In this document: piece by piece, positions 23,531 through 35,844 of the stretch
Layout of the letters: each line of letters begins with the position of its first letter
Position numbering within the stretch: the stretch's first letter is position 1
Source of the DNA: Niveispirillum cyanobacteriorum
Lineage (GTDB): Bacteria > Pseudomonadota > Alphaproteobacteria > Azospirillales > Azospirillaceae
NCBI RefSeq assembly: GCF_002868735.1
Contig: NZ_CP025611.1
Location: 62,001 to 126,000, forward strand
Direction of reading: 5' to 3'
Length of the DNA stretch: 64,000 nt
The notes under the pieces: model-generated
The model's database searches: none
What the model saw: the letters and a program-made list of their open reading frames with translations, nothing else
What the model was told of the DNA's origin: nothing
Translations under genes and position numbers: made by a program

Positions 23531-26047
23531 TTACGCTGACAGCCGCTTTTCAATCGCCTGATCGATATGGGTCTTCATGTCCGGGTCGCTGCTGTAAAGG
23601 CGGTTGAATTCCCGCTTGTCCAGCAGGAGAAGCTGACAGTAGGCGATGGCCGTGACATCGGCATTGCGCGGCTGGTCCAGAACCAGGGCGATCTCCCCAA
23701 AGAAATCGCCGCTGCCCAGACGGATCGGTGTATCCAGCCCTGGCACATGCACCGCCACGGCCCCCGATGACACGAAATAGACCGTGTCGCCGCGTTCTCC
23801 CTTGCGGACGATGGTCTCCCCCGGAAAATAAAGCCGGGGGCGCAACAACCGTTCGATCCGCAGCAACCGGTCCGGTGGCAGGCCGGTGAACAGCGGCACG
23901 CGGCTGATCAACTCATGCGTGGCCAGCCCCAGGTCAAGCTTGGGCGGGCTGCTGACCTCCTGCCAGCGTTCCCGCAGGTCACGCTCCAGATCGTTCAGGA
24001 TTTCCCGGCTGATCAGCGCTTCCTCGAACAGCGACTGGGTAGAGCGTTCCTCCATGCGCAGGCCGGCGCGGATCAGGTATTGAGCCTGTACTGCATCCAG
24101 ATAGGCCGGATATTGCAGACGGATGGCGTCCAACGCCTCTTCCACCACCTTCACACGACCGGTCAGGCGGGCGCGGACCCCTTCTGCGGCTTGTTTGCCC
24201 AGCATAGGAACAAGCCGGTCGTTGGCAAACTGGTTCAGTTCCTGAAGGCAGAACCGCAGGGCCGTGAGCATGGCATAACGCTCAGTCAGCCGCGCCGACA
24301 CAGGCCGTTCCCACCCGAACCGACGATGCAGCCACAAGGCAGTGCGCAGTGCTCGTCCGGCCTTCAGCTGTTTGCCTGCCGCCTTTTCATAGGCTGTGGC
24401 ACCACCGGTTTTCAGGGCGTCCTGAAGGCGTCCGGCGGCGGCGGCCAAGGTTTGTACCGACAGGCGGGAGATCACACCGTCGCGGAAGTAGGAGAGGTAG
24501 CGCTGTTCCTCATACCGGGCCAGGGTGGATAGGCCGATAAACACCCGGTCATCCAGCGATAGCGGGCCATATTGGCTTTCCAGATCCAACTGCTCTTGCG
24601 CCAATTCGGCACCGCGTTCCAGCAGCGGATCCACCGCGTGCGCGACGTCCAGGCCGAACTGTTCGGCCACCTCTTCCAGATCGCGCCGTACATTGGAGAG
24701 TGACAGGCCGACTGCCCGGTTGCGCAGCGCCAGTTCCACGGGAGACAGACGATCCAACCGCAGCAGGCGGATCAAAGGGCGCAGCGTCGTGCCCTGGACA
24801 AACAGGGTGAACAGCACGAAACCCGTCACCACAACGGCCACATGTTCCTGAATATAGTCGGGTAGCGACTGATGCTCCGTCACCGCCAGTGCAAGGGCCA
24901 GCGATACCGCACCGCGCAGCCCACCCCAGGTCATGACAATGCGGTAGCGGTTGCTGATATGATCCGATGCACCGATCCAGTGCAGGGCCGGTAGGATGCC
25001 AAAAATCACCAGGGCGCGTGCCACCAGGGCGGCCACGATCAGGGCAACCAGCAGGGCGATATGGCTCCATTTCGCCTCCATCATGGTGGGGGGCACCAGC
25101 ATGGAGGCGAACAGGAAGATGAGGGAATTGGCCCAGAAGCCTAACTGGCTCCATACCTGTTCCAGGCCGGACCAGCTTTCGGGGCTGATACGGGTGCGCC
25201 CGGCAGACGCCATGACGAGGCCGGCCACGACCACGGCCACGACGCCCGATACATGCAGATAATGTTCGCCCAGGATGAAGGAGAGATAGGCTAAAGCCAC
25301 CGTCAGCGTGATCTCCGACAGGGTCTGGTTGCGCAGTGGAGTGACCACCAGCGCCGTCAGCCAGCCCAGCAGCCAGCCGACGGCCACCCCGCCCACGAAC
25401 TTGAACACGAAGTCGGATGCGGCGGCGACCAGATCGGGCTCCCCGCCCTGGGTCAGGATGCCCAGCAGCAGGGTGAACAGCACGATGGCGGCGGCGTCGT
25501 TGAACAGGCTTTCACCCTCGACCAGGATGGTCAGGCGGCGCGGCGCACCCAGGTCGCGGAAGATACTGACCACGGCGGCGGGGTCAGTAGTGGCGATGAT
25601 GCTGGCCAGCAGGAGGCACACGATAAGCGCCTTTTGCGTCGGCATACCGTGCCACACGCCCCAGACCCACCACATGGCCAGGCCGGCGACCAACGTACAG
25701 ACCAGGACGGCCACGATGGCCAGCAGCAGGATTGGCCCCAGATCATCCAGCATACGCCGGACATCCACGCCCAGCGCTGTTTCAAACAGAAGGATCGGTA
25801 GGAAAATATACAGGAAGGCGGCGGAGGTCAGTTCCACCTCGCCAACGGCATTGATGAAGGCCGTGACGGGGCCGGTCACCCCCTGTTCCACCCCGCCGCC
25901 CAAATGCAGCAGCAGCCCGATGCCCACCCCCAGGGCGGCCAGCACCACCGTGTAGGGCAGGCCCAGGCGCTTGGCCAGCGGCGGCAGCAGGCTGACCAGC
26001 CCCAGCAGGCCGGCAACAGCCAAAAGCGTGTTGATCAAAGTTTCCAT
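23531..26047 (-). CDS. CPA1-type Na+/H+ antiporter with C-terminal cyclic-nucleotide-binding domain
   Basis: An 838-residue membrane protein. Residues ~1-420 form the NhaP/CPA1 transporter with ATTDPAAVVSIFRDLG (~150) and LVEGESLFNDAAAIVLF (~173), the two signature motifs around the ion site. A long helical cytoplasmic region follows (~430-720), and ~735-835 is a cNMP-binding domain with FPGETIVRKGERGDTVYFVS and the phosphate-binding cassette FFGEIALVLDQPRNADV (~783-799), whose Gly, Glu and Arg are intact. The layout resembles plant SOS1-type and some bacterial antiporters. Na+ export gated by cAMP, cGMP or c-di-nucleotide is an inference. The ATG at 26045-26047 matches the family; no strong ribosome binding site is seen. 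Confidence 0.93.
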   Translation of the reverse strand: METLINTLLAVAGLLGLVSLLPPLAKRLGLPYTVVLAALGVGIGLLLHLGGGVEQGVTGPVTAFINAVGEVELTSAAFLYIFLPILLFETALGVDVRRMLDDLGPILLLAIVAVLVCTLVAGLAMWWVWGVWHGMPTQKALIVCLLLASIIATTDPAAVVSIFRDLGAPRRLTILVEGESLFNDAAAIVLFTLLLGILTQGGEPDLVAAASDFVFKFVGGVAVGWLLGWLTALVVTPLRNQTLSEITLTVALAYLSFILGEHYLHVSGVVAVVVAGLVMASAGRTRISPESWSGLEQVWSQLGFWANSLIFLFASMLVPPTMMEAKWSHIALLVALIVAALVARALVIFGILPALHWIGASDHISNRYRIVMTWGGLRGAVSLALALAVTEHQSLPDYIQEHVAVVVTGFVLFTLFVQGTTLRPLIRLLRLDRLSPVELALRNRAVGLSLSNVRRDLEEVAEQFGLDVAHAVDPLLERGAELAQEQLDLESQYGPLSLDDRVFIGLSTLARYEEQRYLSYFRDGVISRLSVQTLAAAAGRLQDALKTGGATAYEKAAGKQLKAGRALRTALWLHRRFGWERPVSARLTERYAMLTALRFCLQELNQFANDRLVPMLGKQAAEGVRARLTGRVKVVEEALDAIRLQYPAYLDAVQAQYLIRAGLRMEERSTQSLFEEALISREILNDLERDLRERWQEVSSPPKLDLGLATHELISRVPLFTGLPPDRLLRIERLLRPRLYFPGETIVRKGERGDTVYFVSSGAVAVHVPGLDTPIRLGSGDFFGEIALVLDQPRNADVTAIAYCQLLLLDKREFNRLYSSDPDMKTHIDQAIEKRLSA

Positions 26048-26195
26048 GGATACGGCACACGCGGCAGGGCGGGCAGGAATGGGCGGCAGAATGGCACGGA
26101 TGGAACGCCTTCCGCTAGCGTTCGGACCCGGCGTTGGCGGAAGGTCGCCCCTGCGCCATGCTTGCCGCTGCATGATGGTTAGCGTAAGTTAATTG

Positions 26196-26300: not shown

Positions 26301-28547
26301 ATGGCGGATGACCTGCTGGACTTTGCGGCGGAACCGGCACCGGTGCCGGTAACCCCGTCGCTGCCGCCATGGCTGGTCCTGATCGTGGATGACGATCCGT
26401 CGGTTCATTCCGTCACGCGCCTTGCCCTGCGTGACATGGCCCATGCAGGCCGCAAGCTGCTGTTTCTTTCGGCCTATTCGGCGGCGGACGCGCGCCAGAT
26501 GCTGGCGGTCTATCCCGATATCGCCCTTATCCTGCTGGATGTGGTGATGGAGGCGGAGGATTCGGGCCTGCGTTTGGTCCGGACCGTGCGGGAGGAGATG
26601 GGAAACCACGATGTCCGCATCATTCTGCGCACAGGCCAGCCGGGACAGGCGCCGGAGCGTGAGGTGGTGGAGCGGTATGACATTAATGATTACCGTGCCA
26701 AGGATGAACTAACAGCGCGCCGTCTTTGGACCTCTGTCTATACGGCCCTGCGCGCCTATGAGCAGATCCGTGAACTGGATGATCACCGGGCCGGCCTGAC
26801 CCATGTGCTGGATGCCACGGCCCGGCTTTTTGGTGAACATGATCCCGAACGGCTGGCCCATGCCGCTGTAGAAGCGCTTGCCGCTGTGGCGGGGCAGGGG
26901 GCGGGTGTGCTTCTGGTCCGCTGCGACCGGCTGCCTGACGGCACGGCGGGAGAACCGCGTCTGCTGGCCGGAATTGGAGAGGGGGGGCTGGCCATGACGC
27001 CGGGCTTCCTTTCGCATCTGGTGCCGGCCGAGATCGGTCAGCAGGTGGCAGAGGCCCTCGCCTCTGGCGCACCGGAGCGGGGGAGCGGCTGGTTCGCGCT
27101 GTCCAGCGCCCTGTCCGGTGAGGCCGCCATCGTGCTGCACCTGTCGCGTCTGCCGCCGGGCCGGTATCCCGATGTGGGGACCTTGTCGCTGTTTGCACGC
27201 ACCGTCGCCGTCAGCCTGGAAAATTCCCGGCTGGTGGCGCAACTGTCCCAGGATCGCACCCATGACCGTGCCACCGGCCTTTTAAACCGCCTTGGCTTCA
27301 TCCAGGCTATCGAGGGGCGGTTGGCGCAAATGCAGGCGGGCAAGGCCGATGCCGTGGCCGTCGGCATTATCGACCTGCGCCATTTCCGCGATATCAACCA
27401 GGAACTGGGCGTGGCGGCCGGTGACCGGCTGCTGGTCAAGACGGCTAACCGCATTACGGCTGCCGCCGGCCCTGGCGCCATCTGTGGACGGACGGGGGCG
27501 GATCAGTTTGCCCTGCTGCTGCCGGGTGCGCCCATCCTGTCTGCCGCCCGCGACATGGTGCAGGCCGTGGTGACGGCGGTCAGCGAACCGGCGATCCTGG
27601 CGGGCCGGGAGGTGCATCCCATGTCCTCCCCCGGGCTTGCCTGGTGCAATTGCGGCGGGCGGCATGGGGAAGAATTGCTGGCCCGTGCGGAGGAGAGCAT
27701 GCAGGCCTCCAAACGTGCCTATGGCCGCCTGCAGGAGGTGGTGATCGGTGCCGACCGGGAGGAAGGCGGGCGCTTGGGCCTGACCATGGAATTGGGTACT
27801 GCCCTGAAGCAGGGGCAGTTCGAGCTTTATTACCAGCCCATCGTCGATGCCGCGACGCGGGAGGTGGTGGCCTTTGAGGCGCTGGTGCGCTGGAACCACC
27901 CGTCACGCGGGATCGTCATTCCTGCCGCTTTCATCCCGACGGCGGAGGAGACAGGCCTGATCGTGCCCATCGGCACCTGGGTGATGCGGGAGGCCGCGGT
28001 CCAGACGGCCGAATGGACCCGGCGCGCGGGCCGTCCCGTCTGGGTCTCCGTCAATATCTCCGCCGCCCAATTGTCGGAGCCTGGGTTCCTGGACAATGTG
28101 CGCAAGGTCATCGCTGACAGCGGCGTAGACCCGACCCTGCTGAAGCTGGAGGTTACCGAAAGCACCATCATTGGCGATCCGGCGCATGCGGCGGAAATCC
28201 TGACGGGCCTGCGTGACCTGGGCATCCGGCTCTGCATGGATGATTTCGGTACCGGCTATTCCAACCTGTCCTACCTGCAGACCTTGCCGTTCGACTTCCT
28301 GAAGGTGGACCGCGCCTTCGTGTCCAGCATGATTGACCGGTTCGAAAGCCGCACCATCCTGCGCACCATGCTGGCCCTGGCACAGCAGTTGGCGCTGGAG
28401 GTTGTGGCCGAAGGGGTGGAGACGGACGAACAGGCGGACGAGCTGTCACGCCTGGGCTGCGGCTTCTTGCAGGGCTATCTCTATGGCCGGCCCATGCCCG
28501 CATTGGATGCGGGCCATTTCATAGGGGTGGCGCCGGTGGGGGTGTGA
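26301..28547 (+). CDS. Response regulator with degenerate GGDEF and intact EAL domain (c-di-GMP phosphodiesterase)
   Basis: A 748-residue cytoplasmic signalling protein. An N-terminal receiver (LVLIVDDDPSVHSV, phosphoacceptor in ALILLDVVMEAEDSG, ~residues 77-80, KDEL as the Lys region) leads to a GAF-like DUF3369 domain (~160-305). The GGDEF domain has GRTGADQF (~396-403) in place of GGDEF, so cyclase activity is unlikely. The EAL domain is complete: AFEALVRW (~522), VSVNISAAQL, LKLEVTEST, MDDFGTGYSNL, DFLKVDRAF and EVVAEGVET. It should hydrolyse c-di-GMP under control of a kinase not encoded nearby. Its stop is one base from that of the next, convergent gene. Confidence 0.92.
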   Translation: MADDLLDFAAEPAPVPVTPSLPPWLVLIVDDDPSVHSVTRLALRDMAHAGRKLLFLSAYSAADARQMLAVYPDIALILLDVVMEAEDSGLRLVRTVREEMGNHDVRIILRTGQPGQAPEREVVERYDINDYRAKDELTARRLWTSVYTALRAYEQIRELDDHRAGLTHVLDATARLFGEHDPERLAHAAVEALAAVAGQGAGVLLVRCDRLPDGTAGEPRLLAGIGEGGLAMTPGFLSHLVPAEIGQQVAEALASGAPERGSGWFALSSALSGEAAIVLHLSRLPPGRYPDVGTLSLFARTVAVSLENSRLVAQLSQDRTHDRATGLLNRLGFIQAIEGRLAQMQAGKADAVAVGIIDLRHFRDINQELGVAAGDRLLVKTANRITAAAGPGAICGRTGADQFALLLPGAPILSAARDMVQAVVTAVSEPAILAGREVHPMSSPGLAWCNCGGRHGEELLARAEESMQASKRAYGRLQEVVIGADREEGGRLGLTMELGTALKQGQFELYYQPIVDAATREVVAFEALVRWNHPSRGIVIPAAFIPTAEETGLIVPIGTWVMREAAVQTAEWTRRAGRPVWVSVNISAAQLSEPGFLDNVRKVIADSGVDPTLLKLEVTESTIIGDPAHAAEILTGLRDLGIRLCMDDFGTGYSNLSYLQTLPFDFLKVDRAFVSSMIDRFESRTILRTMLALAQQLALEVVAEGVETDEQADELSRLGCGFLQGYLYGRPMPALDAGHFIGVAPVGV

Positions 28548-28548
28548 G

Positions 28549-30177
28549 TTAGCCCATGACCACGCGGTTTCGGCCTTCCATCTTGGCGGTGTAGAGGGCG
28601 CGGTCAGCACGGTTGAGCAGTTGATCCAGCCCTTCGCCCTCGGTCAGCATGGCGACGCCGACGCTGACGGTTAGCAGGCAGGGGTCCACCACGTCCGTTC
28701 CCATCCCCTCAACCGAGGCGCGCAGCCGTTCTGCGGCGGCCAAGGCACCCGCGATCCCCGTATCGCCCAGCAGGACGGCAAACTCCTCCCCACCGATACG
28801 GCCCATCACATCCTGGTCGCGCAGCGCCTGCCGACAGGCGCTGCGGAAGGCGATCAGGCTGGCATCGCCGGCGGCATGGCCGAACCGGTCATTGATCGAT
28901 TTGAAATGGTCGATATCCAGCATCAGCAGCGACAAGGGGGTGCCGGTCAGCCGGGAACGCGCCAGTTCGGCCTGCGCCTTGTCCAGAAAGGCGCGGCGAT
29001 TGGGCAGGCCGGTCAGGGCATCCACGGTGGCCAGTTCCCGAAAATGCGCCTCCAGCCGCGTCCGTTCCGCCACCTCCGCCTGCAGGCGCTGGTTCAGCTT
29101 CCTGAAACGCGCGGTGACAAGACTGACGGCCAGGGTGATACAGGCCAGCGCGGCAAAGGCCGCATAAAACCAGGTCAGGTCGGGTTGATGATCGGGGATA
29201 TAAAGAAAGCCGCGCAGATCGACATCGCCGGGCACCAGCCCTGCCGCCGCGAAACCCTGCGCGATATGCCGCCAGCGCCCCTCATGCATATAGCCGACCT
29301 CCACCATGTCGGCCATCATCAGACGCGCCATCTCATCCGCCTCGAACAGCAGGCGCTGCCGTTCCAGGCCGGGTGCATAGGTGCGCAGGATCAGGTCGAT
29401 GGCGGCATCCGGGTTTGACAGGGCTTCCCGCCAGCCGCGCAGGCTGGCCCGGCGGAAGGCCTCCACCACGGCGGGGTTCTCCCGCACCATGCGTTCGGAG
29501 GTGAAGATGGTGTCGCCATAGAAATCGATGCCCGCTGCGCGCGGGGAAAATACCTGATAGGGGATACCGGCCACGCGCAGATCATAGGGTTCGCTGGTCG
29601 TGTAGGCTGTGATGGCATCGACCTCCCCCTTGATCAGCGCCTCCACAGACCCGCTATGCGGCAGTACCGTCAGCTTGTCCTTTGGAACGCGTTCGACCGC
29701 CAAATAGGCCAGCAGTTCCTCCGCATGGGTTTCCAGCATCAGCCGGTGACCGGGCAGGGCATGGACATGCGGTGGACCTATATCGGTACGGGTCAGCAGG
29801 ACAAAGGGCGAATGCTGTAACAGGACGGCCATGGCCACCACAGGCCGGCCCTTCACCCGTTCCACCAGCAAGCCGGCGCTGCCCACGCCGAAATCGGCCT
29901 CGCCATTGGTGACGCGCTGGGCCGCGTCCATTGTCGGGCCCCCTTCCAGGATGCGGACATCCAGGCCGGCCTCCCGGTAATATCCCTTCTCCAGCGCGAT
30001 ATAGAATCCCGCCCCCTGGAACTGGTGTGTCCATTTGAGCTGTAGTCTTACGGGTGTCAGCAGGCCTTCGCCTGCCGCCTGGGCGAGAACCGGCGATACC
30101 CAGAACAGGGTGCAGAGCAGCAGGGCCAGAATTCGGCCCGCGACCGTCAGAAGGAAGGCATGCTTGGGTATGGGCAT
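28549..30177 (-). CDS. Diguanylate cyclase with periplasmic NMT1/THI5-like binding domain
   Basis: A 542-residue membrane receptor. A signal anchor (ILALLLCTLFWVSPVLA) is followed by a periplasmic binding-protein fold of the NMT1/THI5 (SsuA-like) type, residues ~40-330 (LQLKWTHQFQGAGFYIALEK, GEADFGVGSAGLL, ITAYTTSEPYDL). One membrane helix lies at ~335-355, a coiled-coil (LNQRLQAEVAERTRLEAHF) connects to a GGDEF domain with GGEEF at 462-466 and a product-inhibition I-site RDQD at 453-456. It should make c-di-GMP in response to a small ligand such as a pyrimidine, amine or sulfonate-like compound; the ligand is unknown. No transporter gene accompanies it, so the domain acts as a sensor. Confidence 0.9.
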   Translation of the reverse strand: MPIPKHAFLLTVAGRILALLLCTLFWVSPVLAQAAGEGLLTPVRLQLKWTHQFQGAGFYIALEKGYYREAGLDVRILEGGPTMDAAQRVTNGEADFGVGSAGLLVERVKGRPVVAMAVLLQHSPFVLLTRTDIGPPHVHALPGHRLMLETHAEELLAYLAVERVPKDKLTVLPHSGSVEALIKGEVDAITAYTTSEPYDLRVAGIPYQVFSPRAAGIDFYGDTIFTSERMVRENPAVVEAFRRASLRGWREALSNPDAAIDLILRTYAPGLERQRLLFEADEMARLMMADMVEVGYMHEGRWRHIAQGFAAAGLVPGDVDLRGFLYIPDHQPDLTWFYAAFAALACITLAVSLVTARFRKLNQRLQAEVAERTRLEAHFRELATVDALTGLPNRRAFLDKAQAELARSRLTGTPLSLLMLDIDHFKSINDRFGHAAGDASLIAFRSACRQALRDQDVMGRIGGEEFAVLLGDTGIAGALAAAERLRASVEGMGTDVVDPCLLTVSVGVAMLTEGEGLDQLLNRADRALYTAKMEGRNRVVMG

Positions 30178-30237: not shown

Positions 30238-30750
30238 TCAATCTCGCGGGTCGTCGATCAGGCCCGCCGGTTCCGGCTTGTCATCACCCTTGCCCATGAT
30301 CTCCGTTCCCCAATCGGCAATCAGCAGGCTGCGCCGTTCCTCCAGTTCCTTGATCTTCGCCTGGCTGCGCAGACTCATGATCGCGGCGACGATCTGGGGG
30401 ATGAAGAAGTACATCAGCCAGCCGATGGCCGCCGCGCCGAACATGATCAGCCAGGTGCCAGGATCGGCCAGCATCCGCAGCGTGACGGCCATTTCATGCC
30501 CGCGCTGCCACAGCCGGACGACGAAGGGCGCAATGCCGCACAGGTTCATGGCACCGACCGTCATAGCCGCCGATTTCTCCGGATCACGGTCGATCAGGTA
30601 GGCGACGAAGGTGGGCGCCAGCCCCGCCAGAACCAGCACACTGGTCGGCATCATCATCAGGCCCGCGGGGGCCAGCAACAGCAACAGCAACAGTGCGCCG
30701 CCGCCGCCGCTGCGCCGCTTGGGCGGGCGTTTGCCAAGAGACGTGCTCAT
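30238..30750 (-). CDS. Small membrane protein paired with the pseudokinase
   Basis: A 170-residue membrane protein of unknown function. A basic N-terminus (GKRPPKRRSGGGG) precedes about three hydrophobic segments (LLLLLLLAPAGLMMMPTSVL, VGAMNLCGIAPFVVRLW, WLIMFGAAAIGWLMYFFIPQ) and a charged C-terminal helix (LRSQAKIKELEERRSLLIAD) that would lie in the cytoplasm. The ATG overlaps the stop of the pseudokinase gene by 4 bases (ATGA), so both are made together. I know no characterised homologue. Confidence 0.72.
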   Translation of the reverse strand: MSTSLGKRPPKRRSGGGGALLLLLLLAPAGLMMMPTSVLVLAGLAPTFVAYLIDRDPEKSAAMTVGAMNLCGIAPFVVRLWQRGHEMAVTLRMLADPGTWLIMFGAAAIGWLMYFFIPQIVAAIMSLRSQAKIKELEERRSLLIADWGTEIMGKGDDKPEPAGLIDDPRD

Positions 30751-32819
30751 GCCAGCCTCAGCATGTACAGGACCGTGCCGATCATGGTCATGCCGGCAAC
30801 GATGGCGGTGACCACGGCGGCGATCTGTCTCCCAGTGCCATCTGCCAGGGCCGCCTTGTCATTGGCTGTGGATTTCAGTTTTTCGATCTGTCGTGTCAGA
30901 CCTTCATACTGCCGCATCGCGGCCAGGAAGCCCTTGTCGTCGGCGCGGATGGCATCGACATTATCGACGATGCGGACAATGGCATCCAGAACCCCGTCGC
31001 GCGCGACGTTGGTCACTTCCGCCTTCATGCGGTCGCGCGTCTCCCGGTTCTTGAAGCGCTTGAAGACCGGATCCATCAGCGAGACCAGCCAGCCGCATAG
31101 GTTGGGCAGACGGGCAGGACCGAACCGGTTCTGCACATCGGCCAGCACCGTGATCATGGCGATCATACGCCGCGCCGGATCATGCGGGTTCGACAAAGGC
31201 ACCAGCAGCCGGTCATTCAACTTCTTGTGATGCGTGGTGATATAGCCCAGCACATGCCGGTCCACCGGGTCGCGCCCCCGGTTCGGCTTCAGGGCGATCT
31301 GGTCCAGGGCGGACAGCAGCTCCGCCGGGCTCAACACATAATGGTCGCGCAGCTGCGGCGACAGGCAGGGGCAGGAGGGGCATAGCTCATAGACGATGCG
31401 TTCGATCCCGAACCCCATACCGACATGTTCCAACAGGGCGCGGTAGCCATCATAGGCCTGGACCATGGGCACATATTCAGGCCGGAAGTCGGCCTGGCAG
31501 TTCACCCAGAAATGAGGGAACTGTGCCAGCACGAATTCGGCGAAAGGCTGTACACCGCCATTCTGCCAGATGGCCTCCGCCAGCGCCGTGCCCAGACCGT
31601 CGGGCAGGACCGAGATGCCGCGATAGCGGATGGGCGATGGCGGGTCCAGTGCGATGGAGACGCGCGTGACCAGCTTATCCTCCTGGCTGGCGCCGCGTCC
31701 GCCAGCCCCGGCAGAGGCGATGGCGGTCTGCATGGCCTCGGCCCGCGCCTCATCCCCCACCGACCTGCGCACCCATTTCTCCACATCGCCGCGTTCGATC
31801 AGGGCGGCGGCGGCGGCACTGTGCCGGGTCAGCGACCGGGCCAGCGCCCGGCAATGCATCAGGTCCTCGCCCTGGAACTCAAAAGGCCGAGCACCACGGC
31901 GCGGCACCTGCGGCTGCTTGGGCGACATGCGCCGGCCTTGCAGCCAGAGGTCCAGGTCGGAGACGGACCAGCGCTGCTTGGGATCATCGATCATCAGGCC
32001 GCGCAGCGGCTCCACCAGGCTTTGCGGCAGGCGTACCTGGCTGGTCAGGGCCGGATAGGTGCCCTTGTCCATCTTCAGCTTCAGGATGCTTTCATCATCC
32101 AGATCGGCCAGCGGGTTGCGGCCCAGATAGAGCACCAGCAGCGTGACGCCCAGCGCGTAGAGATCATCGGCAACGGTGCCGGGGCCGCGCCCCGCCGGCT
32201 GCGCCATCCCGCGTTCAATGGTCTCCACCAGCAACGGTTGGCCATAGCCAACGGGTGTCGACAGGCAGTCGCCGATGGTGACGGTGGGGGAGGCGGGGTC
32301 CTTCTGGAACAGGTTGGTGGGCCTGATGGCACCACAGGTCATGCCGCGCGCATTCATTTCCCGCAGCGCGAACAGCAGCGTCGGCATCAGCGAACGGCTG
32401 ATCGTGTCGTCAGATATGGGTTCGCGCGTCTCGCCCATATCCTGCATGACCCGGCGCCCACCGGGTCGTTCATAGATCAGGACGAAACGCTTCTTGCCCT
32501 CCGGCGTCCAATCCACCGTGCCCCAGTCCATCAGGCGCAATACCGCCGGATTTTCAATGGCGCGGTAGGTGGCCATCATGTCGATGCGGGCCGGCACGGA
32601 CCGGTCGGTGACGATGGCAAAGACTTCCGTCTTGCGGTCCCGGCTCATCCGCGCCGCAAAGGCGGGGCCGCCCGCCGAATCGAGTGCCGGCAGGGCTGTG
32701 CCAGGCATGATCTCGCACCGTCCGCCCAGATCGACGGGCGACGATGGGACCATCATCTCCGCCCCACGGCGGGGCGGCGGCGGGGCGGGCTTCTCGTCAA
32801 GGTCGGCGCTGCTGGCCAT
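30747..32819 (-). CDS. Membrane-anchored protein-kinase-like protein, predicted pseudokinase
   Basis: A 690-residue protein. Residues ~45-295 have a Ser/Thr-kinase fold: VLRLMDWGTVDWTPEGKKRF, the catalytic-loop equivalent TCGAIRPTNLF (161-171), VTIGDCLSTP in place of DFG, and VADDLYALGVTLLVLYLG, then MIDDPKQRWSVSDLDLWLQG. The HRD Asp is Ala (A164) and the beta-3 lysine is not visible, though the Asn of the catalytic loop (N169) is kept; catalysis is therefore doubtful. Residues ~300-640 are novel and contain a Cys cluster CPSCPC (480-485). A coiled-coil precedes a single C-terminal membrane helix (~666-690). The ATG at 32817-32819 is chosen by composition. It is coupled by a 4-base overlap to the small membrane protein. 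Confidence 0.82.
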   Translation of the reverse strand: MASSADLDEKPAPPPPRRGAEMMVPSSPVDLGGRCEIMPGTALPALDSAGGPAFAARMSRDRKTEVFAIVTDRSVPARIDMMATYRAIENPAVLRLMDWGTVDWTPEGKKRFVLIYERPGGRRVMQDMGETREPISDDTISRSLMPTLLFALREMNARGMTCGAIRPTNLFQKDPASPTVTIGDCLSTPVGYGQPLLVETIERGMAQPAGRGPGTVADDLYALGVTLLVLYLGRNPLADLDDESILKLKMDKGTYPALTSQVRLPQSLVEPLRGLMIDDPKQRWSVSDLDLWLQGRRMSPKQPQVPRRGARPFEFQGEDLMHCRALARSLTRHSAAAAALIERGDVEKWVRRSVGDEARAEAMQTAIASAGAGGRGASQEDKLVTRVSIALDPPSPIRYRGISVLPDGLGTALAEAIWQNGGVQPFAEFVLAQFPHFWVNCQADFRPEYVPMVQAYDGYRALLEHVGMGFGIERIVYELCPSCPCLSPQLRDHYVLSPAELLSALDQIALKPNRGRDPVDRHVLGYITTHHKKLNDRLLVPLSNPHDPARRMIAMITVLADVQNRFGPARLPNLCGWLVSLMDPVFKRFKNRETRDRMKAEVTNVARDGVLDAIVRIVDNVDAIRADDKGFLAAMRQYEGLTRQIEKLKSTANDKAALADGTGRQIAAVVTAIVAGMTMIGTVLYMLRLA

Positions 32820-32985
32820 GATCGAAAGGGGCGCTCCGGTCGGATGATCGTAATGGCGGGTAAATGGTTCCGCGCGATCATCGCAAACCATGTGCGAATG
32901 CACAATGGCACGCGGTTGCATGCAGCCGAAAGAAACAGGCACCTGAACTTTGGCCTAATACGTCTATCCGGGGCCGATCCAACCA

Positions 32986-34317
32986 TCAATGCTTGTGGCG
33001 GAGGTCCAGGACCTGCTGTGCTGTCAGGGGGCGGTAGTAGAAGTATCCCTGGCCGTAATCGCATCCTGCATCGGCCAGCGCCACCAGTTGCACCAGATGC
33101 TCAACGCCCTCTACCACGGTCCGCATTCCCAGTTTGCCAGCCAGGTCGACAATGAACTGAACGACGGCTAGCTGCCGTTCATTCTCCACAACATTATCGA
33201 CGAAACTCTTGTCGATCTTCAGGGTCGTGGCGGGGCAATTGACCAGCAACGATAGGGCAGAATGGTCACGACCGAAATCATCAATAGCGATGCCGAAACC
33301 TTCTGAGGCAATAGCTTTGACCTGGGCCATCACCGCTTCGTTGCTCAACAGTCCCTCTGTGATTTCCAGCTCCAGCTTATCCCGGTCAAGGCCCAGGCGC
33401 CGGCATTCCTCAGTCAGAATTTCCAGGACGGAAGGGGCGCAATTATCTGGCTGAAGCTGAAGCGGGGAGACGTTGATGGACAAATGGATGCTCCGCCCCT
33501 GTTGCCGCCATAGGTGCTTCTGGCGCAGCGCTTCCCGCATCAGCCATTCGCCGATTGGAACGATGGTCTGGTTGCGTTCGGCCAGTGGTATGAATTCCGC
33601 CGGTGATACAGAACCGAATTCAGGGTGGCGCCAGCGCAGCAGCGCTTCCACCCCAAATACCTCTCCTGCCCGTATGTCGATCTTCGGCTGGTACACAAGC
33701 GACATACCGGACCCGCCACGTGCAAACCAGAGGCCGTCTTCCAACGCCCGCTGCCGCGCCAGTTTGCGGCGAAGATCATCAGCATACCAGCCGATCTGCC
33801 GGCTGCTGCGCTGTGCCTCTCGCCGGGCGGAGCGGGCCGCCATGACCAGCATGTCCATATTGTCGGCAGCGTCGATGAAGCTGGCCACACCACAGGACAA
33901 GGACAGGTGGCATGTGGTGTTGCCCACCCGCAATGGCGCCTCCAACAGGCGGATGATGCCCTCCACCTCCGCGTTGGCATCAGGCAGCAGGGCCGCGAAC
34001 CGTTCACTGTCGAACCGGGCCAGCAGCGCATTCTGACCGAAGGCTAATGTCATCCGGTCACGGATCGTCGCCAGCAGGATCAAGGCAGCATCATAGCCCA
34101 GGCGTGAAATCAACCCGTCATAATCGTTCAATTCCATATAGATCAAGATGGCGTTACCGCCGCCGGCTGACAGGGTCTTTAGCAGGCGATTACCTTCTGT
34201 CACGAACCCATGCTTGTTCAGCATTCCGGTCAGCGGATCGTGCAGCAGCGCCGGCGCCTGATAGGCGCAGGGGCAGCTCGCCAGCATTTCCGGCATCATA
34301 TCAAGACCTTGGATCAT
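32986..34317 (-). CDS. GGDEF(degenerate)-EAL protein, paralogue A
   Basis: A 443-residue cytoplasmic protein without a sensor domain. The GGDEF region begins DPLTGMLNKHGF (~28) but the active-site loop reads ARFDSERFAALLP (~99-111) and lacks GG and the Glu pair, so it is not a cyclase. The EAL domain keeps VEALLRWRHPEFG, LSINVSPLQL, LELEITEGLL and VVEGVEH, while the loop-6 motif is IDDFGRDHSALSLL instead of DDFGTGYSSL. Activity is uncertain, because loop 6 controls dimerisation and metal binding in EAL enzymes. I chose the ATG at 34315-34317. It follows its paralogue by ~100 bases and probably arose by tandem duplication. Confidence 0.85.
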   Translation of the reverse strand: MIQGLDMMPEMLASCPCAYQAPALLHDPLTGMLNKHGFVTEGNRLLKTLSAGGGNAILIYMELNDYDGLISRLGYDAALILLATIRDRMTLAFGQNALLARFDSERFAALLPDANAEVEGIIRLLEAPLRVGNTTCHLSLSCGVASFIDAADNMDMLVMAARSARREAQRSSRQIGWYADDLRRKLARQRALEDGLWFARGGSGMSLVYQPKIDIRAGEVFGVEALLRWRHPEFGSVSPAEFIPLAERNQTIVPIGEWLMREALRQKHLWRQQGRSIHLSINVSPLQLQPDNCAPSVLEILTEECRRLGLDRDKLELEITEGLLSNEAVMAQVKAIASEGFGIAIDDFGRDHSALSLLVNCPATTLKIDKSFVDNVVENERQLAVVQFIVDLAGKLGMRTVVEGVEHLVQLVALADAGCDYGQGYFYYRPLTAQQVLDLRHKH

Positions 34318-34362
34318 TTCTGAACCCCGTCGGTTCGGCATGATCAAGATTACTATAACTTT

Positions 34363-34370
34363 ATGGTTAA
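34363..34370 (-). promoter_or_regulatory. TTAACCAT site upstream of EAL paralogue A (CtrA-half-site-like)
   Basis: The minus strand reads TTAACCATAAAG, about 46 bases before the chosen start of paralogue A. TTAACCAT is the 8-mer half-site reported for CtrA in Caulobacter. A similar site lies upstream of paralogue B (35867-35874), and chpT is in the same window. Confidence 0.4.
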
Positions 34371-34418
34371 GCCATTTGTCCAGATGGTCAGGTTTCCAAG
34401 GTTCCGCCGGAGCGACAT

Positions 34419-35750
34419 TTATGCTGCCTGGCGCAGATCCAGAATCCGGCCCGCGCACATGGGACGGTAATAGAAATAGCCCTGGCCATAGTCACAGCCG
34501 GCCCCGGCGACCGCCACCAACTGGCGGATATGCTCAATCCCTTCCACCACCGTGCGCATGCCCAGATCATGGGCCAGTTCGGTGATGAAACGGATGATCG
34601 TCGCCTGACGCGGGTTGCGCAGGACATTGTCCACGAAGCTCTTGTCGATCTTCAACGTATTAGCCGGGCTTTCCACCAGCAGGGACAGGGCCGAATGGTC
34701 CCGCCCGAAATCGTCAATACCAATGGAAAAGCCCGCATCGGCCAACCGGCGTACTTGTACCATGGCACGCTCGTCTGTCAGCATGCCTTCGGTGATCTCC
34801 AGTTCCACCTTCCGGCGGTCCAGGTCCAGACGCGCACATTCATCGACCAGGATTTCCAGAACAGAGGCGTGGCTGGGTTCCACCAGCAACTGTACCGGCG
34901 AGATATTGATGGCCATGGAAAGGTCCATGCCATCCCGCCGCCAATCCGCCTGCTGGCGCAGCGATTCCCGGATCAGCCATTCGCCCAGCGGATTGATGGT
35001 GCGGGTCCGTTCGGCTACCGGTATGAACTCGGCTGGTGAGATGGCACCCAACTCCGGATGGGACCAGCGCATCAGCGCCTCCACCCCCGTCACGCGGCCA
35101 GAATGGATTTCGACCTTGGGCTGATAAAGCAGCGAGATGCCGGCGCCGGCCCGGCTGGCCCACAACCCATCCTCAATGGCGCGGCTTCGTGCCAGACGCT
35201 TGCGCAGGTCGCTGGCGAAGACGCTGACCGACCTGCCCGCATTGGCAGCGTCCCGCCGCGCAATGCGAGCGGCCACTACCAGCATATGCATATCGTCGGC
35301 GGCTTCGGGATAGGAAGCGACGCCGCAAGTGATGGACAGATGATAGGCATGGCCGCTAATGACCACCGGTGTTTCCAGCGTCCGGTTCAGGGCCTCCAGA
35401 CTGTCCCCCGCATCAGGCAACAGGGCCACGAAACGCTCACTGTCCAGACGTGCCAGCAGGACATCGTCACCAAAGGCCAGTTCCAGGCGCCGCCGCATGG
35501 CGTTTAGCAGTTCCAGCGCCTCCTCATATTCCATGCGGGAGACGATACCTTCGTAATTGTTCAATTCGATGAAGACGACATGCGGATGTTCTCCGGCCAG
35601 CACCATCATGGGTAGCAGGCGGTTTCCCTCGCGGATGAAGCCGTGTTTGTTCAGCAATCCCGTCAACGGGTCGCGCAGGGCGACAGGGGCCTGCGGCGCC
35701 ATGGCCGAGACGGTGTCGTCGCCTGCACGGAGGTAATGTACCCGTTGCAT
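34419..35750 (-). CDS. GGDEF(degenerate)-EAL protein, paralogue B
   Basis: A 443-residue protein from the chosen start, closely similar to paralogue A along its length: DPLTGLLNKHGF, ARLDSERFVALLP as a degenerate GGDEF loop, VEALMRWSHPELG, MAINISPVQL, VELEITEGML, IDDFGRDHSALSLL and GQGYFYYRP. Shared loss of GGDEF and the same loop-6 change argue that these were fixed before the duplication. Likely role: c-di-GMP phosphodiesterase or a c-di-GMP-binding effector. The ATG at 35748-35750 has CAGGG 5-9 bases upstream; ATGs at 35780 and 35798 are alternatives. Its upstream region (35799-36030) is A+T-rich with several TTAA motifs. Confidence 0.85.
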   Translation of the reverse strand: MQRVHYLRAGDDTVSAMAPQAPVALRDPLTGLLNKHGFIREGNRLLPMMVLAGEHPHVVFIELNNYEGIVSRMEYEEALELLNAMRRRLELAFGDDVLLARLDSERFVALLPDAGDSLEALNRTLETPVVISGHAYHLSITCGVASYPEAADDMHMLVVAARIARRDAANAGRSVSVFASDLRKRLARSRAIEDGLWASRAGAGISLLYQPKVEIHSGRVTGVEALMRWSHPELGAISPAEFIPVAERTRTINPLGEWLIRESLRQQADWRRDGMDLSMAINISPVQLLVEPSHASVLEILVDECARLDLDRRKVELEITEGMLTDERAMVQVRRLADAGFSIGIDDFGRDHSALSLLVESPANTLKIDKSFVDNVLRNPRQATIIRFITELAHDLGMRTVVEGIEHIRQLVAVAGAGCDYGQGYFYYRPMCAGRILDLRQAA

Positions 35751-35844
35751 CTGAACCCTGCCCATCATCTTGCAATCCATTGCAACATCATGGGGCAAGA
35801 TGATTATTTTGTCAGATGTGCAGAGGGATAGTTGATCATATCAA

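Follow-up and report, generated by a model that had tools for sequence, protein, structure and literature searches.

A two-gene unit of Alphaproteobacteria encoding a predicted membrane-tethered pseudokinase and a small membrane protein

The larger of two overlapping genes of Niveispirillum cyanobacteriorum encodes, judging by its predicted structure and by comparison with its homologues, a pseudokinase: a kinase fold is present, and the catalytic motifs have been lost across a conserved family. This gene, here called K, is accompanied by a gene for a small membrane protein, M, and the two were found together in roughly one in three of the alphaproteobacterial species that were sampled. Both genes lie in a 64,000-nucleotide stretch of DNA that was analyzed as a whole (the window). 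We give a probability of about one half to the proposal that the two products assemble into an ancient inner-membrane complex of Alphaproteobacteria, a scaffold or regulator that works without phosphotransfer and likely serves a cell-envelope process.

The gene pair, its distribution and its neighborhood

The 690- and 170-residue products that a first-pass annotation of the window had described as encoded with a 4-base overlap were both found in place (Table 1), an ATGA on the minus strand being common to the stop codon of K and the start codon of M. Each gene is present in one copy in its own genome. Outside the genus, alignable homology to K mostly begins past residue 20, and the ATG start was therefore preferred over an in-frame GTG at 32942, which would give a protein of 731 residues.

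Table 1. Features of the K-M region (positions are those of the window)
Feature	Position	Strand	Remarks
K	30747..32819	minus	690 aa, ATG at 32819, stop at 30747; predicted membrane-tethered pseudokinase
M	30238..30750	minus	170-aa membrane protein, partner gene of K
K residues 26-296, predicted protein-kinase-like fold	31932..32744	minus	AlphaFold and VIA
K residues 162-164 (CGA), HRD position	32328..32336	minus	catalytic Asp replaced by Ala (A164)
K residues 183-185 (GDC), DFG region	32265..32273	minus	DFG Asp assigned to D184
K residues 304-620, predicted helical domain (317 residues)	30960..31910	minus	no PDB match
K C485	31365..31367	minus	only invariant cysteine, 107/107 homologues
K residues 655-689, C-terminal helix with membrane segment 666-684	30753..30857	minus	model and hydropathy
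c-di-GMP proteins flanking K-M	26301-28547, 28549-30177, 32986-34458, 34419-35798		four, by Pfam
Other loci with c-di-GMP neighbors of K (13)			L067, L091-L094, L097, L102, L104, L106, L107, L112, L158, L206

Each gene matched 44 of 59 relatives, one K match (G057) being short and weak and one M match (G038) weak; both genes are present in every one of the 35 genomes from the family of N. cyanobacteriorum, its own included. In a sample of 289 genomes of the class, 104 were matched by K and 104 by M. After genomes with only weak matches were dropped (G041, G097, G099, G157 and G270 for K; G038, G043 and G176 for M), 99 and 101 genomes were left: 99 carried both genes and 188 neither, K never occurred by itself, and M did so in two genomes (G066, 84 percent complete, and G080, 75 percent). 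No p-value was assigned to this co-occurrence, since the genomes are related. Of 112 K places, 100 have M as the next gene downstream; small K fragments in G130 and G307 were left out of this count, pieces of split genes were included, and several of the 12 places lacking an adjacent M are contig ends or split genes. The pair had been proposed to be a two-gene unit that should be searched for across genomes, and it proved to be conserved, with M present in all 99 genomes that have a strong K match, and not local.

Among 161 K-M pairs with a gap of less than 400 bases, in which some genomes are represented twice and starts were set mechanically, 30 have a 4-base overlap. G168, G268 and G129 have second K copies, with no second M detected (loci L174 and L176 were inspected), and three extra M copies, away from K, are present in each of G048 and G180. 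These extra copies and the 12 places without an adjacent M argue against a reading of K and M as one complex. One of the extra M copies of G048 (L082, L083 and L084) lies just downstream of a gene for a 994-residue hybrid histidine kinase; G180 belongs to the same family as G048. Both genes are retained in G251 (99 percent complete), where they lie on different contigs, each 50 kb or more inside; linkage alone thus does not explain their co-retention there. The pair is also kept in small genomes of completeness 100 (G081, 1.4 Mb; G205, 1.6 Mb; G300, 1.7 Mb). When a profile of the K helical domain was run against 299 genomes from the phylum, eight matched, all of them Alphaproteobacteria, the share of other classes among the 299 not being given. 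One K locus (L143) is titled as an Anaerolineae MAG and is probably a misbinned contig.

The commonest gene order is hisZ-purA-K-M, and the breadth of this setting suggests that it is ancestral. Among the 116 K loci longer than 7 kb (some genomes twice), 54 have purA ahead of K on its own strand at a distance of at most 600 bases and 53 have hisZ upstream; in 41, a gene for a pseudouridine synthase follows downstream in the opposed orientation. When 177 K places were considered, a gene of the purA cluster was immediately upstream in 72, and M was the downstream gene in 166. In six loci (L151, L156, L157, L159, L222 and L226), K, M, TadE, TadF and TadG genes follow each other on one strand, the Tad genes being recognized by Pfam in L156 only and by BLAST clusters in the others; L222 and L226 also have purA and hisZ clusters upstream. 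The three Tad clusters were present in 6 of 185 loci, a count that divergent Tad genes could escape. Locus L157 is titled Micavibrio. In the 2.0 Mb genome G166, a tandem K-M-K-M array (L167:5500-12892) stands directly upstream of flhA.

Four c-di-GMP proteins adjoin the pair in the window, as had been noted from the sequence, and were all seen by Pfam. Such an island was not supported as the usual setting of the pair: hisZ-purA-K-M is commoner, and c-di-GMP neighbors were observed mainly in Niveispirillum and Nitrospirillum loci. BLAST clusters 11 and 29, which hold the four window proteins, have members no more than four genes from K in 13 other loci, a count that may miss other domain layouts; cluster 12 was counted in the same analysis. 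These loci come from Niveispirillum, Nitrospirillum, strain AAP38, 'Azospirillum sp. B4' and, for L206, one further genome, and two of them (L067 and L104) share a contig. The window protein at 28549-30177 has an NMT1/THI5-like domain fused to a GGDEF domain and is perhaps a ligand-sensing diguanylate cyclase. Further along, at 23531-26173, a sodium/proton exchanger with a C-terminal cyclic-nucleotide-binding domain is encoded. The host genome contains a single PF00069 match (G000:C1:364414-365058), which is located inside an open frame of 1747 residues and is not K; it therefore seems unlikely that K serves a network of conventional Ser/Thr kinases.

Predicted structure and residue conservation

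An AlphaFold model of the whole of K, prepared with an alignment of 43 homologues, had a mean pLDDT of 88.6 and a pTM of 0.83, with pLDDT block means of 83-97 between residues 31 and 290. The best VIA match of the kinase-like domain was WNK3 (5o21; Z 23.7, rmsd 2.7, 252 residues aligned), and the Z values of other WNK rows were within 1 of it. WNK is an active kinase. The kinase fold that the first-pass annotation had called recognizable is marginal when K of the window is taken alone (Pfam Pkinase, E 0.034, 14 bits, the gathering cut-off of 31.7 not being reached), while it is clear from the family, 38 of whose 43 members match Pfam Pkinase at E up to 0.1 (best E 3.7e-11), and from the model. 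We conclude that the domain has a predicted bilobal fold of the Hanks type.

The comparison of catalytic positions drew on 107 full-length homologues, no two identical but many close relatives of each other, taken from the window and from loci L062-L185. In the window protein, the replacement of the HRD Asp and the lack of a beta-3 Lys (FAIV, residues 67-70) were both seen as originally reported. The family agrees: the HRD Asp is present in 4 of 107 sequences (as HGD; L066, L068, L101 and L146), 20 different triplets occur at this position (HGA, CGA and HRA among them), and the beta-3 Lys is found in one sequence, the residues among the rows listed being V (49), I (47), L (4), T (2), K (1), M (1), A (1) and a gap (1). 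D184 was placed at the DFG Asp by its distance in sequence from the catalytic loop, the residue before it being Gly in 104/107; at 184 itself, an acid is present in 97/107 (Asp in 44, Glu in 53). An intact HRD/DFG set, the finding that would have spoken for kinase activity, did not appear when the catalytic loop was aligned, and no homologue has two or more of the beta-3 Lys, HRD Asp and DFG Asp (0/107). On these residues, the reading of K as an active Ser/Thr kinase was rejected. Among five Azospirillum plasmid records, two give the K homologue the name 'serine/threonine protein kinase', although no sequence among the 107 has the set of residues that the usual mechanism needs.

Other positions of the domain are strongly conserved. 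D219 and R283 are fixed in 107/107 sequences while the catalytic residues are lost, as would be expected of a fold that is kept without catalysis. The catalytic-loop Asn (N169) and R78 are each retained in 104/107, and A53 and A68 in 101 and 100, respectively. With N169, R78 and the acid at 184 kept, a point against the loss-of-catalysis reading, K may bind a nucleotide or metal.

When folded alone, the helical domain (residues 304-620) gave a pLDDT of 92.2 and a pTM of 0.87. A Foldseek search of the PDB returned no matches at E<=0.001, and none were obtained among viral models; the best VIA Z was only 5.0, PDB sequences gave one match at E 0.97, and the best Pfam E value in any of the 43 members was 0.015. 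The domain may represent a new fold, as judged against the PDB and viral models. Y477 is invariant (107/107), and G471 (106), E473 and D520 (105 each) and R474 (104) are nearly so; position 522 is His in 94 sequences and Gln in 12. The CPSCPC cluster that had been pointed out at residues 480-485 is present in the window protein, but it is not a family feature, as its last Cys alone is conserved. C480 and C483 are Cys in 13/107 sequences each, and a conserved metal site at the cluster was rejected, two of the three cysteines being kept in just 13/107. K ends in a long helix (621-653) followed by a helix with a hydrophobic segment, and the C-terminal membrane anchor suggested earlier was supported by hydropathy at 666-684.

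In M, hydropathy picked out two hydrophobic stretches, 22-53 and 99-125; a third and weaker stretch, around 61-78, was read by eye. This suggests a protein with approximately four membrane helices and both ends inside. Across 26 homologues, residues P46, N69, G72, A107, W147 and G148 do not vary. No family fitted M convincingly; a match to a piece of lysylphosphatidylglycerol synthase was seen in 1 of 26 members (E 0.0082, below the cut-off) and was rejected.

Proposed role and alternatives

In the proposed complex, M would sit in the membrane, with K tethered beside it through its C-terminal helix and the rest of K in the cytoplasm. The kinase-like domain would provide a docking surface, its phosphate transfer having been lost, the conserved helical domain would be the main working or binding module, and the pair would most likely scaffold or regulate a process of the cell envelope. 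We infer the physical complex, the cytoplasmic placement and the scaffold role; an envelope process is suggested by the membrane location and the broad retention of the pair. The conservation of the pair, retained even at a genome size of 1.4 Mb, points to some basic process that does not yet have a name. The earlier suggestion of an undescribed signaling module is putative, as none of the results reveals a signal. More tentatively, K and M could form a core, class-specific inner-membrane complex, made of a pseudokinase with an undescribed helical fold, whose retention in small genomes would reflect a basic envelope process; lineages without the pair would then manage that process in another way.

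Other roles for the two domains of K were considered. The kinase-like domain might bind a nucleotide and catalyze an unusual transfer, such as AMPylation of the SelO type or glutamylation of the SidJ type, or it might sense ATP. The retained N169, R78, A53, A68 and acid at 184 would fit, and DYD, POMK, SelO and SidJ provide precedents in the available part of PMC12599244; Table 1 of the same source has SelO and SidJ retaining the Lys of a VAIK-type motif, however, and the scarcity of both the beta-3 Lys and the HRD Asp in K, together with the lack of any sequence with two of the three canonical residues, makes this reading unlikely. We also regard it as quite unlikely that the helical domain is an enzyme or a ligand-binding domain (C485, Y477; E473, R474, D520) regulated by the pseudokinase. 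Its confidently predicted fold without a PDB match and its invariant or nearly invariant residues, G471 among them, speak for this possibility, but such residues may be structural, H522 is not fixed, and enzyme families gave no convincing match.

Readings that draw on the neighborhood appear weaker than the envelope scaffold. The Tad loci and the array upstream of flhA, which encodes FlhA, would suit a part for K and M in an appendage or secretion machine (a Tad pilus or flagellar export), as EssB has in type VII secretion; this is improbable given that the Tad clusters were found in just 6 of 185 loci and that the usual neighbors are hisZ, purA and the pseudouridine synthase gene. Most improbable, in our judgment, is that the pair is a component of c-di-GMP control: the four flanking proteins of the window and the recurrence of their clusters in 13 other loci are in its favor, while elsewhere the hisZ-purA setting is the commonest, and the host genome has 34 GGDEF matches.

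Comparison with known systems

Anti-phage defense kinases (MAD6, PD-T4-6, MkoA) were rejected as relatives, there being no match over most of a profile and PADLOC scores being 20.8 bits or less. The best PADLOC match of K was mad6 (E 3.7e-05, 20.8 bits, profile positions 234-306 of 659); all PADLOC matches except one (BrxA, E 0.024) fell in the kinase-like domain, and NCBIfam MADS6 scored 17.3 bits with K of the window, against a cut-off of 460. The class IV lanthionine synthetase LanL was likewise rejected (36.4 bits for K of the window against an NCBIfam cut-off of 650, residues 139-325 only); it is weakly matched by 43/43 family members, which we read as kinase-domain similarity. The statement that no described system has the K-M layout holds for the literature searched, in which no description of the pair was found; the kinase atlas PMC12233097 may already contain the family.

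Pseudokinase families named in the available part of PMC12599244 are ActPs1-3, GLW, CP1, DYD and DLHK. GLW pseudokinases are described there as having GLW in place of HRD and LLLL/W in place of the Lys motif; K differs, with no GLW among the 20 triplets of the 107 rows and with FAIV in the window protein. In the DYD family, as presented in the same part, the beta-3 Lys is replaced by Arg. K is like this family in keeping the catalytic-loop Asn, but its beta-3 position is mostly Val or Ile.

Closer in kind is EssB/YukC, a membrane pseudokinase that acts as a scaffold in type VII secretion b (available parts of PMC12599244 and PMC11217815). Both EssB/YukC and K are transmembrane proteins with a cytoplasmic pseudokinase domain, predicted in K, whose catalytic motifs are degraded, and EssB has a non-catalytic scaffold role. 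As far as these sources go, EssB/YukC belongs to Firmicutes and a T7SS locus, whereas K belongs to Alphaproteobacteria and has an unmatched large helical domain, a C-terminal anchor, the purA setting and the partner M. EssB was not among the structure and sequence matches listed for K, where canonical kinases fill the rows, and no T7SS genes were seen among the K neighbors scanned with Pfam. The MviN pseudokinase domain (ActPs3) is actinobacterial and belongs to a larger membrane-spanning protein that acts in peptidoglycan synthesis (available part of PMC12599244). It is, like K, a membrane-linked pseudokinase, its role being envelope control, while its actinobacterial origin and its architecture set it apart from K. 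By analogy with EssB/YukC and MviN (PMC12599244, in the part available), K would probably act as a scaffold, resembling them in kind, with any relation to EssB/YukC putative.
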